In this document: in pieces, positions 59,530 through 64,000 of the stretch
How positions within the stretch are numbered: position 1 is the first letter of the stretch
Layout of the letters: every line of letters begins with the position of its first letter
Assembly: GCF_000737595.1 (NCBI RefSeq)
Contig: NZ_CP006271.1
Location: 1,116,001-1,180,000 of the forward strand
DNA from: Synechococcus sp. KORDI-52
Lineage (GTDB): Bacteria > Cyanobacteriota > Cyanobacteriia > PCC-6307 > Cyanobiaceae
DNA: 64,000 nucleotides
Direction: 5' to 3'
Notes under the pieces: generated by a model
What the model saw: the letters and a program-made list of their open reading frames with translations, nothing else
Database searches by the model: none
What the model was told of the DNA's origin: nothing
Position numbers and translations under genes: made by a program

Positions 59530-59621
59530 AGGCGGCTCAAGAGGCCAGGAGGGTGGTCGGTTGTCCGGTGATTGACCCCATGCGATCGGGCTGACAGCCT
59601 TTGGTCGTCTACCAGGAATTC

Positions 59622-60065
59622 ATGTCCGACGGCACCTCCCTGACGATCAAGCGTCCGATTACCGTTCGCGCCGTCGTGACGCCCACTTGGAAAGAGGAAG
59701 CAGAGCGAGAGCTCAGCAATGGCATTGCCACCGCTGACCAACAGCTGGCTCAGCTCGAGCAGGAAGGCCAGGACGTGGTGGACCAGGTGCGGCGTCAGAG
59801 CGCCAATCCTCTTGATCCCCGGGTGCAGGATCAGGTAGCGCAAATTCAGCAACAGGTGGCGGCCAAACGTGCCGAGCTGGAGGAGCAGAAGCGCAATCTG
59901 CTCCAGCAGCAAGCTCAGGTGCGTGAGCTGGAGATGGACCAGATCGTTGAGCAGGGGCAGCTGGAGAGCAGCTGTGAGCTAAAGGTTGGCGACAACCTGG
60001 TGCAGAAGATGCAGGTTGCCATCGTTGTCAAAGATGGTGTTGTCCAGTCGATTGAGGCAGCCTGA
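59622..60065 (+). CDS. YlqD-like coiled-coil protein
   Basis: 147 residues from ATG 59622. The short N-terminal KRPITVRAVVTPTWKEEAE is followed by a long coiled coil (about residues 25-105, for example QIQQQVAAKRAELEEQKRNL), then a small beta domain (GDNLVQKMQVAIVVKDGVVQ). This matches the YlqD family, of unknown function. Two hairpins follow the stop. Confidence 0.8.
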   Translation: MSDGTSLTIKRPITVRAVVTPTWKEEAERELSNGIATADQQLAQLEQEGQDVVDQVRRQSANPLDPRVQDQVAQIQQQVAAKRAELEEQKRNLLQQQAQVRELEMDQIVEQGQLESSCELKVGDNLVQKMQVAIVVKDGVVQSIEAA

Positions 60066-60104
60066 TTGGCTGCTCAAACGTTGTCTTGAGTCTTGAGCCC
60101 GGAT

Positions 60105-60137
60105 TAATATTCAGGAGTCTTCGGATTCTGAATATTA
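60105..60137 (+). terminator. UUCG-capped hairpin after the YlqD-like gene
   Basis: taatattcag (60105-60114) pairs with ctgaatatta (60128-60137), capped by agtc-TTCG-gatt with a single bulged G. No T-run follows. It is a stable RNA 3' end or processing element. Confidence 0.65.
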
Positions 60138-60160
60138 GAGCCATAAATATTATTAACTAC

Positions 60161-60207
60161 CCGCCTTAAAAATGATGACGTCGATTAAGGCGGCAAAATA
60201 TTTTTTG
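60161..60207 (+). terminator. Rho-independent terminator
   Basis: ccgccttaa (60161-60169) pairs exactly with ttaaggcgg (60185-60193), 15-nt loop, followed by caaaatattttttg. It would terminate the lipB-acyl synthetase-YlqD transcript. Confidence 0.75.
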
Positions 60208-60222
60208 ATCTTTGAAAAAAGA

Positions 60223-60253
60223 GAGTCACGTGGGTTAGGTCTGGCTGTGACTC
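60223..60253. repeat. Inverted repeat gagtcac/gtgactc
   Basis: Perfect 7-bp arms at 60223-60229 and 60247-60253, separated by 17 nt, just after the terminator. Could be an operator or hairpin. Confidence 0.4.
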
Positions 60254-61007
60254 GGATTATCCAGCTTTAATGGAAATTCACATTGTCAGAAAGGGGGCGA
60301 ATTTCCTGTTGCATTGAGCTCTCGAGGCGCATTGAAAAACATGGCCGTGAATCAAATGGACAAGAATTGTTTTATGTTTAATCGATTTTGGTTTTATCAG
60401 CCATATATGTTTCCCTCTAGGCGCTTTTTCGTTGCTAAGCGATTACAAAGCAGAATGGATGCGAGATAATGATGTGTTGTACTTCTTGCTCTATTGCCAC
60501 CCAAGATACAAATCAGAAAAAATATTAAACACCTCTTGAGTTGTTGGAGAGTAGAGAAAGCTGTGATGGTTATTGGCTTTTTCCTGGGAAGTAGGACTTT
60601 AGGGCTGGCTTTCGTGATCCATTGATTTTTAGTGGGCAGTGAATTAAGCATTTGCTTGTCATCTTTGCCCTCAGCAGTAAGTAATTATTCTTACTTTAAG
60701 CGTAGGGCTTGCTTCATGGTTCTCCTTTATGGGGTGGAGGACAAGGCTGTGGCTAGTTGATTTTTCCCTTGCCGAAAGATAAATATCTGAATCAATGCAC
60801 TAAAAAAATGATGCAAGCTGCAAAGCTTCAAATGCGGCAATTAAAGAATGAGGTTTCGCTATCCCAGTAAAGACAGGGGATTTAAAAAAGCGAAAAGCTT
60901 CTTTTGTGCAAAAGAGCTGTCCAACAAAAAAGTTTGTAAAAGAGTAAGTATTCAGAAGACAAAGGTAAGTTGAATAATCCAGGGTGAAAGCTGTAAATGC
61001 ACATCCG

Positions 61008-61033
61008 CACAGATGTCCAGATGGACAAATGTG
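61008..61033 (+). promoter_or_regulatory. Hairpin in the leader of the giant gene, followed by a short T-run
   Basis: cacagatgtcc (61008-61018) faces ggacaaatgtg (61023-61033): five plus four base pairs with a 2x2 internal loop and an agat tetraloop. A ctttttc run begins 8 nt later, so it might attenuate transcription. The start codon is 37 nt further on, with AAAGGA about 8 nt before it. Confidence 0.4.
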
Positions 61034-61070
61034 TGTGCCACCTTTTTCAATTTTCAAAAGGATTTCAGTT

Positions 61071-64000
61071 ATGGCCTCGCAACCAACTTCCAATGCCTCC
61101 GCCAAGAACAAGGAAACCCATGCCTTGAAAGATGCGGATATGACCATCCACGGTGATGGAATTTTGAATGCGTTTGTTCCTGAGGTCGGAACCAATTCTG
61201 TCTTGGCTCACGGAGTCAATACCAACGGCGATGCGAGTGCAAAAGCCAAGAGCAAGGCATCGGCAGCGATCATTGAATCAGACTTAACCAGCAAAGGTGA
61301 TGCGACAGTCAATGCCCGTCAGCAACTTGCTCTAATTGCTGATGCTGATACCACGAACGGAGATGCTATCGCTAAAGCAAAAAATGATATCAATAGCGAG
61401 GAAACGGGCGGAATAATTAACAGTAATCAAAATATCAAAGGTGCCTATGTTCAAGATGTAGATGTCAAGAATGCTACTTCCGCCGAAGCCACAACAACTT
61501 CAGGGGTTTCAACTGCAAAAGCGATCGAACATAGTACCTATGGTGTGTTTAATAGCGATCAAAGGAGTAAAAGTACATATGATGCAACCGTCATCAACAA
61601 GAACAGTATTATCTCTGATGCAAAAACTACAACAGGTGAAACCTTTAGTGGTGATTCAGGCACGAACGCGAAGAGCAAGAGTGGGGAACGCACGGGTATT
61701 CGCTTTGGTGATGCTGAAACAGCTTCTGCTGGAGAGTCAATTGAACTGAAGACGGGTGGTGATGCTCATATTTCAGTTGATGTTGGCACTGCTGATGATC
61801 CGAATGTAGTCAGTGCTTCTGCCAAAACAAAGGGTTCCGGTGATGCACATGCATCACTTGTTACGTCCAACAATTACGGCATTACTGGTAAATCTTTTGA
61901 GACAAAGGTAACTCCTGGTGAGCCCGAAGTACTAGAATATGAAGCTCGTCCTAGCCAAAGTACTTCAGTTAATCCTGGAACAAAGAATAGGTTATTTATA
62001 GTATTTGACGAACCATATACTGGAGACACAATTACACTTAAAGGAATTCGACTAGCAGACTCCGATCCTGATATTGCAAACTATACATTCAAGTTCAAAG
62101 ATCCTAGCGGCGCTGAGGCTCAGCCAAATGAAAGACCTATAAAAATTACAAGTGGAGGTGGGACAGCCCCAGGACCGGATAATGACATCGTCTTGAATGC
62201 ATCAATAGGTTATACAAATATCAAGGAAATTAAAATCTTTGGCGAGGAAGATGGGACAAATGGAGGAGATAAAGGGTCAGGACTATTAGGCATAACTTTT
62301 ACAGGCCCCGTTCAAGTACTTGGCGATACCGGTGAACCAATAAGCGTCAATGTTGTTGTTGATGGATTCAACGCGACGATTAAGGGTAACGCTAACATCG
62401 TCGCAACAGTGGCGAATGATTACACTTCGTCTGCTAAAACGACGACGGGAGATGCAAGTGCCAGCTCGTCGACATCTGGACGAAATGGGCAAGGAGAAGT
62501 AATTGCTATTGATGCCAATGCTGTCAGTGTCAAAGGAACGGGAATTATTGCTGGAAGTGTAGAAAACCATCAATCTACATCAGCCAAGACGACTACAGGT
62601 AGAGCCGAAGCAGAGTCGCAAGATGGTCTTGTGAAAGGCGTCAGAGCTAATGATCTTTTGATTAACGAGACTGCCACAATCACAGGAGATGTAAAGACTG
62701 ATGTCGTAGCAAAAGCAGTCACCCATGGAGGAGGAGATGCAGAGGCATCAGCGAATTCATTCAATCCAGATGCCAAGAATTCTTCATTTGGTGGGGAGTC
62801 AGTTGGTGCAGATATTGAAACGGTTGTAGCCAAACAAGCGTTGAATATAAATGGAAGTGTCGAATCAAAATTCGATGTTGATGCCAAAAATAATCACGGT
62901 GACGCTTCTGCATCCTCGGCAGAACTTCAAGTCACGGGTGTCTTAATTAAAGACACTAAAGGAGCAGATGTTGACATCGAAGGTAGTGCAACAGTTGAGC
63001 AAGATGTGTTTGCTAAAACCGTTGGGGGTGGGAATGCAGAAGCAACAATCACCTCTGGTCCTGATTTTTCAGAAACAGTTCCGCTAAAACTAGATGGCAT
63101 CACTGGTATTGCCAGCACCTCTGGAATCAATGCCAAAGGGATGCTGAATGTTCACGGTGTTGTTGAGTACGACGGCACCGCTGTTGCGAAGAACACGACT
63201 GGTAATGCCAAGGCCCGAGTTGGAACAGACGACCTTCCTTTGCAGGATATGGTCGGCACACTGCTTGTGAATTCTGGTCCGAAGAGCGGCAGTGCCGGCA
63301 TGCATGTGAGTGGTAAATCAACCGCAGATACTGTTGCAAAAGCAACCACACATTCTGGCAAAGCTGTTGCTTCTGTGGATTCTGATCCTGTCAAAGGTGT
63401 CAAGAGCAATGCCGGAACGCTTTATATGTCGAAAGGAGATCTTTCGGTTGATGGTGATGCGACATTTACGGCAGATGTTGATTCTCGATCGACTGGATCG
63501 AGTGGTTCAGGAGGTAAGTCTTCTGCATCTGCTGATGTCTCGAATGTGGTTGGTGTTGATCTTTCCCAGCTTGATAGTAGAGAGAAAGCAAGTGCGAATC
63601 AGCTTAAAGCAGCTGGTCATATCGATGTTGACGGTCACGTTGACACAACGCTCAATGCGCAAGCTGTCAATACAACAGGGCGATCGACTGCATCAACAAC
63701 AACCAGTCTGCAAAAGGGTGTTTTGATCAGTGACAACGATAATTCTTTCCCCCCTTCTAACGATAGTACGGTTGTTCGAGGCAGCTCTGTCGATATTGAG
63801 GGTGGTGTCATTAGCACATCAATTGCCAATGCAGTCAGCCATGGTGGTGGAGGTGCATTTGCCAGTGCGGATGCGGTTAACCCTAAGAATGTTGATGTTA
63901 GGGATAGAAACTTCTCAACATTTGGCGGTGAGACTGTTGGTGTTGATGTCGACAAGGTTGTTTCCAAGTCTGACTTGAAATTAAACGGCAGTGTCGAAAC
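61071..64000 (+). CDS. N-terminal part of a giant repeat protein, open at the window end
   Basis: Frame from ATG 61071, with AAAGGA 8 nt upstream, stays open to the last base: 976 codons visible and no stop. The protein is very rich in Ala, Thr, Ser, Asp, Gly and Lys. It has only one Tyr-rich stretch and virtually no Cys or Trp. It is built of about 16 degenerate units of 40-60 residues, typically ending in a GDAxAxA motif (for example TNGDASAKAKSKASA, AKTTTGDASAS, THGGGDAEASA, NHGDASASS). Residues about 275-410 are a non-repeat domain. There is no N-terminal signal peptide or membrane helix, as expected for type I secreted proteins. Likely a giant cell-surface protein, comparable in kind to SwmB of motile Synechococcus, but identity is unproven. 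AT-richer than neighbours. Confidence 0.85.
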   Translation, partial: MASQPTSNASAKNKETHALKDADMTIHGDGILNAFVPEVGTNSVLAHGVNTNGDASAKAKSKASAAIIESDLTSKGDATVNARQQLALIADADTTNGDAIAKAKNDINSEETGGIINSNQNIKGAYVQDVDVKNATSAEATTTSGVSTAKAIEHSTYGVFNSDQRSKSTYDATVINKNSIISDAKTTTGETFSGDSGTNAKSKSGERTGIRFGDAETASAGESIELKTGGDAHISVDVGTADDPNVVSASAKTKGSGDAHASLVTSNNYGITGKSFETKVTPGEPEVLEYEARPSQSTSVNPGTKNRLFIVFDEPYTGDTITLKGIRLADSDPDIANYTFKFKDPSGAEAQPNERPIKITSGGGTAPGPDNDIVLNASIGYTNIKEIKIFGEEDGTNGGDKGSGLLGITFTGPVQVLGDTGEPISVNVVVDGFNATIKGNANIVATVANDYTSSAKTTTGDASASSSTSGRNGQGEVIAIDANAVSVKGTGIIAGSVENHQSTSAKTTTGRAEAESQDGLVKGVRANDLLINETATITGDVKTDVVAKAVTHGGGDAEASANSFNPDAKNSSFGGESVGADIETVVAKQALNINGSVESKFDVDAKNNHGDASASSAELQVTGVLIKDTKGADVDIEGSATVEQDVFAKTVGGGNAEATITSGPDFSETVPLKLDGITGIASTSGINAKGMLNVHGVVEYDGTAVAKNTTGNAKARVGTDDLPLQDMVGTLLVNSGPKSGSAGMHVSGKSTADTVAKATTHSGKAVASVDSDPVKGVKSNAGTLYMSKGDLSVDGDATFTADVDSRSTGSSGSGGKSSASADVSNVVGVDLSQLDSREKASANQLKAAGHIDVDGHVDTTLNAQAVNTTGRSTASTTTSLQKGVLISDNDNSFPPSNDSTVVRGSSVDIEGGVISTSIANAVSHGGGGAFASADAVNPKNVDVRDRNFSTFGGETVGVDVDKVVSKSDLKLNGSVE
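62715..62864 (+). repeat. Long-period repeat of the giant protein, copy A
   Basis: 50 residues starting AVTHGGGDAEASAN, continuing FGGESVGADIETVV and ending LNINGSVE. It matches copy B at 63831, 372 codons later. Confidence 0.8.
63831..63998 (+). repeat. Long-period repeat of the giant protein, copy B
   Basis: 56 residues starting AVSHGGGGAFASAD, continuing FGGETVGVDVDKVV and ending LKLNGSVE. It differs from copy A mainly by a six-residue insertion before FGGE. The window ends here, so more copies may follow. Confidence 0.8.

Follow-up and report, generated by a model that had tools for sequence, protein, structure and literature searches.

The window analysed here is a stretch of 64,000 nucleotides (bases 1116001-1180000 of the single-contig, 2,572,069-base genome of Synechococcus sp. 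KORDI-52), and it ends inside a long open reading frame made of degenerate repeats. This raises the question of what kind of protein, hereafter repeat protein A, is encoded at this locus, and of how such a protein could leave the cell. Globally, the data presented below indicate that A is probably a type I-secreted surface protein that is devoid of RTX repeats, probably forms a long beta-solenoid and is exported in trans.

A long and intact gene

The frame starts at an ATG (position 61071) preceded, with an 8-nt spacer, by the ribosome-binding site AAAGGA, and its 976 codons are open to position 63998, as described in an earlier reading of the sequence alone (hereafter the sequence-only reading). 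An alternative GTG is found upstream, at 60984; both paralogs of A present in the genome, B and C (see below), begin at the residue equivalent to the ATG. The frame does run off the window, as had been proposed, and continues unbroken up to a stop codon located 4.2 kb beyond the edge (L009:10168, L009:2066 being window position 60066), without any frameshift or early stop. The gene is intact and is not cut by a frameshift. A terminator-like hairpin lies 65 nt past the stop, and the gene therefore looks monocistronic.

The window includes only the first two fifths of the gene, whose full product has 2,365 aa (236 kDa, pI 4.7), a size far below that of SwmB, which reaches 10,791 aa; the suggestion that this could be one of the longest bacterial genes is therefore not retained. 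Like its whole family, A is rich in Ala, Gly, Ser, Thr and Asp. The near absence of Cys and Trp noticed in the window extends to the complete protein, which contains neither of them. The N-terminus is hydrophilic and, judged by eye, lacks any hydrophobic segment, in agreement with the proposed absence of a signal peptide. The features of the locus are listed in Table 1.

Table 1. Features of the locus encoding repeat protein A, in window coordinates
Feature	Position	Strand	Basis or remark
ylqD-family gene, left island border	59601..60065	+	Pfam YlqD, E 2e-37
Low-GC island, start	60066..64000	.	11.1 kb, to window-equivalent ~71190, just before pdhC
Ribosome-binding site AAAGGA	61057..61062	+	Sequence, 8 nt before ATG
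Repeat protein A, residues 1-976 of 2,365	61071..64000	+	Open frame; stop at window-equivalent 68168
N-terminal repeat region, residues 1-272	61071..61886	+	Common to paralogs B and C and distant relatives; alignments, profile hits in other genera, all-beta model
Inserted non-repeat domain, residues ~273-435	61887..62375	+	Predicted beta-rich, low confidence, mostly below 65
First ~378-residue mega-repeat, residues 570-947	62778..63911	+	Direct repeats; AlphaFold pTM 0.80, all beta
Second mega-repeat, beginning only (cut at window edge)	63912..64000	+	Direct repeats, unit profile

Repeat architecture and predicted fold

A unit profile detects 16 units in residues 1-976 and 38 in complete A. 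The sequence-only reading had counted about 16 degenerate units of 40-60 residues over the same region; this number stands, but not the continuity of the array, as residues ~273-435 correspond to an inserted domain without repeats. This insert is missing or almost so in B, and an unrelated insert occupies the same position in C.

At a larger scale, A carries four tandem blocks that start near residues 570, 948, 1333 and 1742 and are spaced by 1.13-1.23 kb, the direct repeats themselves being spaced by 1137-1227 nt. Successive blocks (378-409 residues) share 69-96% protein identity with dN/dS ratios of 0.28-0.51, which places the repeats beyond chance and is consistent with duplicated blocks that then came under purifying selection. 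The growth of the array is best explained by recent tandem duplication of a ~1.15-kb block. The number of 1.15-kb blocks in A is that of the public assembly of the KORDI-52 genome, which was obtained from 454 reads and primer walking (PMC7522525), an approach that can miscount long repeats.

AlphaFold2, run on residues 570-960 with an alignment of the other blocks and of the paralogs, gives a regular all-beta model (mean pLDDT 79.9, pTM 0.80) that displays seven long strands (17-18 residues) with a spacing of 43-60 residues. A similar all-beta look is obtained at lower confidence for residues 1-270 (pTM 0.63, model of residues 1-480). The repeats most likely form a beta-solenoid, a geometry read from predicted secondary structure only. 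Foldseek searches of the A models against the PDB and against the viral models of BFVD found no match at E 0.001 or better, and none of the named beta-solenoid folds of the PDB shows a significant structural match to A.

The top PDB match is a curli subunit (E 0.046, not significant), and this match, together with beta coils rich in small residues, could suggest a secreted functional amyloid that, like curli or Fap, polymerises outside the cell. However, this is improbable, as the curli fold score is at noise level (TM 0.08), A has no obvious Gln/Asn ladder and the linked export genes described below are of type I, neither CsgG- nor Fap-type.

An undescribed family of picocyanobacterial proteins

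The proposal that A belongs to no named family proved correct: the family has no match in Pfam and NCBIfam (curated cut-offs) or in PHROGs (E 0.001), and no solved fold fits A. It is an undescribed family of picocyanobacterial proteins. Sub-threshold Pfam/NCBIfam matches (DUF6015, Ten1_2, DraK_HK_N and PRK05980) were below the cut-offs and were ignored. A phage-fibre origin was dropped, A having no tblastn match in 50,697 phage records and no PHROGs match.

Of the two paralogs, which are dispersed in the genome, B has 2,259 aa and lies at 1.292 Mb, whereas C has 2,243 aa and lies at 2.266 Mb; their last thirds are 91% identical to each other. Paralog C alone harbours a Trp-rich insert (RQVWVPGHRWKWWIGEWVTEEY) near the middle of the protein, within the repeats (L011), the inserts of A and B being different and located elsewhere. 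A plain search of 58 related genomes, including 33 of the same genus, with the window fragment of A gave no match outside its own genome. Scans of genome contigs and viral contigs with degenerate peptide patterns found no relatives either, such patterns being probably too weak at this level of divergence. Relatives were recovered solely when whole genomes were searched with a profile. The one built from the N-terminal region detects, in other genera of the same family, distantly related proteins with lengths of about 900-1,400 aa, for instance in 14 of the 42 genomes of genus g33; among 386 sampled genomes of the phylum, the matches are confined to one family of picocyanobacteria. The family of A is absent from the 33 other genomes of its genus. 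As this N-terminal profile also matches internal repeats, it has a lower specificity than the profile of the C-terminus described below and is no proof alone.

Because of the compositional bias of these repeat proteins, the position of the matches was used to verify homology. A profile of the C-terminus, derived solely from the distant relatives, gives 36.5 bits for A, 72.0 for B and 75.9 for C, each time at the C-terminal end, versus 12.8 bits for the best internal match and 14.3 bits for the best of 900 shuffled sequences. The C-terminal ~100 residues are therefore conserved family-wide, the score of A being the weakest of the three paralogs.

This distribution also bears on a possible kinship with SwmB, one of the giant surface proteins of marine Synechococcus (PMC4949707), which would make A a SwmB-like surface protein for non-flagellar swimming. 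According to its description in the literature, SwmB is set apart from A: swmA and swmB are reported as clade III-specific and located on their own islands (PMC7522525), whereas the close operon relatives of the A family are found in other genera and none in the 33 genomes of the genus. That A is such a swimming protein is very improbable.

Linkage of the family to a type I exporter

Paralog C is the first gene of a cluster that successively encodes an RTX-like companion of 717 aa, a PpiC-type isomerase, an ABC exporter of 1,075 aa (L014:5664-8891), an HlyD protein and a 1,241-aa repeat protein. The exporter, whose nearest solved relative is HlyB, includes cyclic-nucleotide-binding, C39-like, transmembrane and ATPase domains. 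In an alignment, its C39-like domain shows no Cys and no His at the places expected in an active peptidase; it looks degenerate, which fits the export of uncleaved substrates. The 1,241-aa protein encoded after HlyD (L014:10377-14102) has no Pfam match and carries about eight near-perfect tandem repeats of ~52 residues (TTPTVDSSESDSSTDTTTTD...) as well as RTX-like motifs near its C-terminus.

The order repeat protein, companion, PpiC, exporter recurs in two other genera, in nine genomes in total, and most relatives stand first in such a conserved operon. Six further loci encode a repeat protein and a companion with no exporter in the available stretch, several of them being on short contigs. 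In one relative genome, two family members are arranged in tandem ahead of the companion gene (L110; G408:C150, 5343-11235). The exporter of locus C clusters with the exporters of these cargo operons (56-59% identity), versus 39-46% identity with exporters of its own genus and with the second exporter of the genome. In genus g33, this exporter type (67-100% identity, the next class reaching at most 60%) is encoded by 15 of the 42 genomes. All 15 also carry the repeat protein, detected by profile in 14 of them and located directly upstream of the companion in the last one (G148), and the 27 other genomes have neither. The corresponding Fisher p value is 3e-10 with G148 scored as lacking the repeat protein, a strength that is overstated since related genomes are treated as independent. 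Within the genus of the window, both the exporter type and the repeat protein are restricted to the genome of the window. The co-occurrence in g33 and this restriction are the strongest evidence that the repeat family is very probably the dedicated cargo of this exporter type, and that it very probably leaves the cell through its own export pump.

The exporter and HlyD are encoded together with the cargo in the case of paralog C and nine relatives, but not in that of A: no exporter or companion is encoded next to A or B, and members without adjoining exporter are likewise found in G154 and G408. Two features that the sequence-only reading proposed to look for are missing from the extended sequence, which reveals neither ABC/HlyD genes beside A nor an RTX motif in A. 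Indeed, the GGxGxD motif is found 0 times in A and B, once in C and four times in the companion, and A, lacking this defining motif, is not an RTX protein. The description of A as a large, non-Sec repeat protein of secretion type can nevertheless be kept, owing to the family C-terminus that it carries, to the presence of paralog C and distant relatives in an HlyB/HlyD/PpiC operon and to the exact co-occurrence of family and exporter type in the 42 genomes of g33, but without any RTX motif or adjoining exporter of its own.

Given its great length, its repeats and the link of its family to type I secretion and to an RTX companion, A also recalls the RTX adhesins of the LapA/SiiE kind, in which Ig-like extender domains stabilised by Ca are combined with an RTX region at the C-terminus. 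That A is such an adhesin is, however, quite improbable: besides the absence of GGxGxD, no Ig-like, cadherin or RTX match was found in Pfam/NCBIfam, and its unit is of ~50 residues, versus ~100 for Ig-like extender domains.

The genomic island carrying the gene

The ylqD-pdhC locus was examined in 19 other genomes of the genus, and in 16 of them about 60 bp separate the two genes. Here, the gap reaches 11.1 kb (L009:2066-13191), with a GC content of 0.40-0.50 versus 0.60-0.67 on both flanks, and encodes A, a TPR-repeat protein and an unnamed protein of 336 aa. In G003, G005 and G027 (L143, L144 and L145), three genomes that belong to the same genus, the site harbours unrelated islands of 4.6-5.7 kb. 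The presence of different islands at this site in four genomes points to an insertion hotspot, and A probably sits on DNA acquired from elsewhere. No tRNA gene was found in the 20 kb around A. The islands of G003, G005 and G027 have in common a gene of ~490 aa adjoining ylqD, whose product looks like a phage-type integrase. Just 3' of A, the 336-aa protein (L009:10600-11610) has no Pfam or PHROGs match; a 394-aa protein encoded on the minus strand (L009:11596-12780) carries near-identical TPR-like repeats of 34 residues.

As A lies apart from any exporter, its export, if it occurs, would take place in trans. The foreign composition of the island that carries it, its remoteness from all exporters and its C-terminus, the most diverged of the three paralogs, could also indicate an orphan, i.e. 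a non-exported or decaying island copy that is no longer served by an exporter. This is unlikely, as the frame is intact and provided with a ribosome-binding site and a terminator-like hairpin, dN/dS is below 1 between blocks, both termini are conserved and members located away from the exporter are kept in other genomes too. Export in trans is the preferred reading.

Proposed mechanism and role

According to this preferred reading, A would be made in the cytoplasm, and its conserved C-terminal ~100 residues would carry an export signal recognised by the HlyB-like exporter. The exporter used would be the one encoded 1.1 Mb away, at the locus of paralog C. After passing through the exporter, HlyD and a TolC-type pore, A would fold outside the cell into a long beta rod and be retained at the surface, perhaps by the RTX companion. 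Proteins of the family may thereby coat or decorate the cell, the rod-like repeats possibly building a shield against grazers or phages, or serving in adhesion.

More tentatively, and with appreciable doubt, the family could represent a new class: calcium-independent beta-solenoid rods displayed by picocyanobacteria at their surface and secreted by a type I system with their own exporter clade and RTX partner, whose length would be tuned by block duplication, whose extra copies would be spread by islands and of which several genes would be served in trans by a single exporter. The operon order and the exact co-occurrence make export, surface display and a possible anti-grazer or anti-phage role of the family directly testable.

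Comparison with known systems

A would work like a type I-secreted giant surface protein, a class membership deduced from its family context and not directly. The system shares with HlyB/HlyD-type secretion an HlyB-like exporter, a C39-like domain without catalytic residues and an HlyD adaptor and, with type I substrates, a cargo that has a conserved C-terminus and no N-terminal signal. It differs from them by the cyclic-nucleotide-binding domain of the exporter, the PpiC neighbour and the lack of RTX repeats in the cargo.

Like RTX adhesins and SiiE, A is very long, linked to type I secretion and made of tandem repeats with inserted non-repeat domains. However, RTX adhesins are described as extending through beta-sandwich repeats whose linkers contain calcium (PMC7493085) and SiiE through Ca-binding Ig domains (PMC5466336), whereas the model of A points to uninterrupted beta coils, and its sequence is devoid of RTX motifs. 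With CsgA of curli and FapC, which are secreted, A shares predicted beta-rich repeats of small residues, but no significant fold or sequence match, and the export genes differ.

The giant proteins of marine and estuarine Synechococcus, such as SwmB, are likewise large, repetitive, strain-variable, carried by islands and proposed to be cell shields (PMC4949707, PMC9387257). In eight other marine Synechococcus strains, giant proteins were detected by exoproteomics and classed as interaction proteins (PMC4949707). Cadherin, Ig, VCBS or RTX domains have been described in the giants of the estuarine strain NB0720_010 (PMC9387257), whereas the A family matches no domain model and is linked to an exporter type of its own. 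Marine Synechococcus are known for giant genes, most of them unexplained, and the family described here adds to them proteins that have no domain annotation and are tied to one exporter clade.
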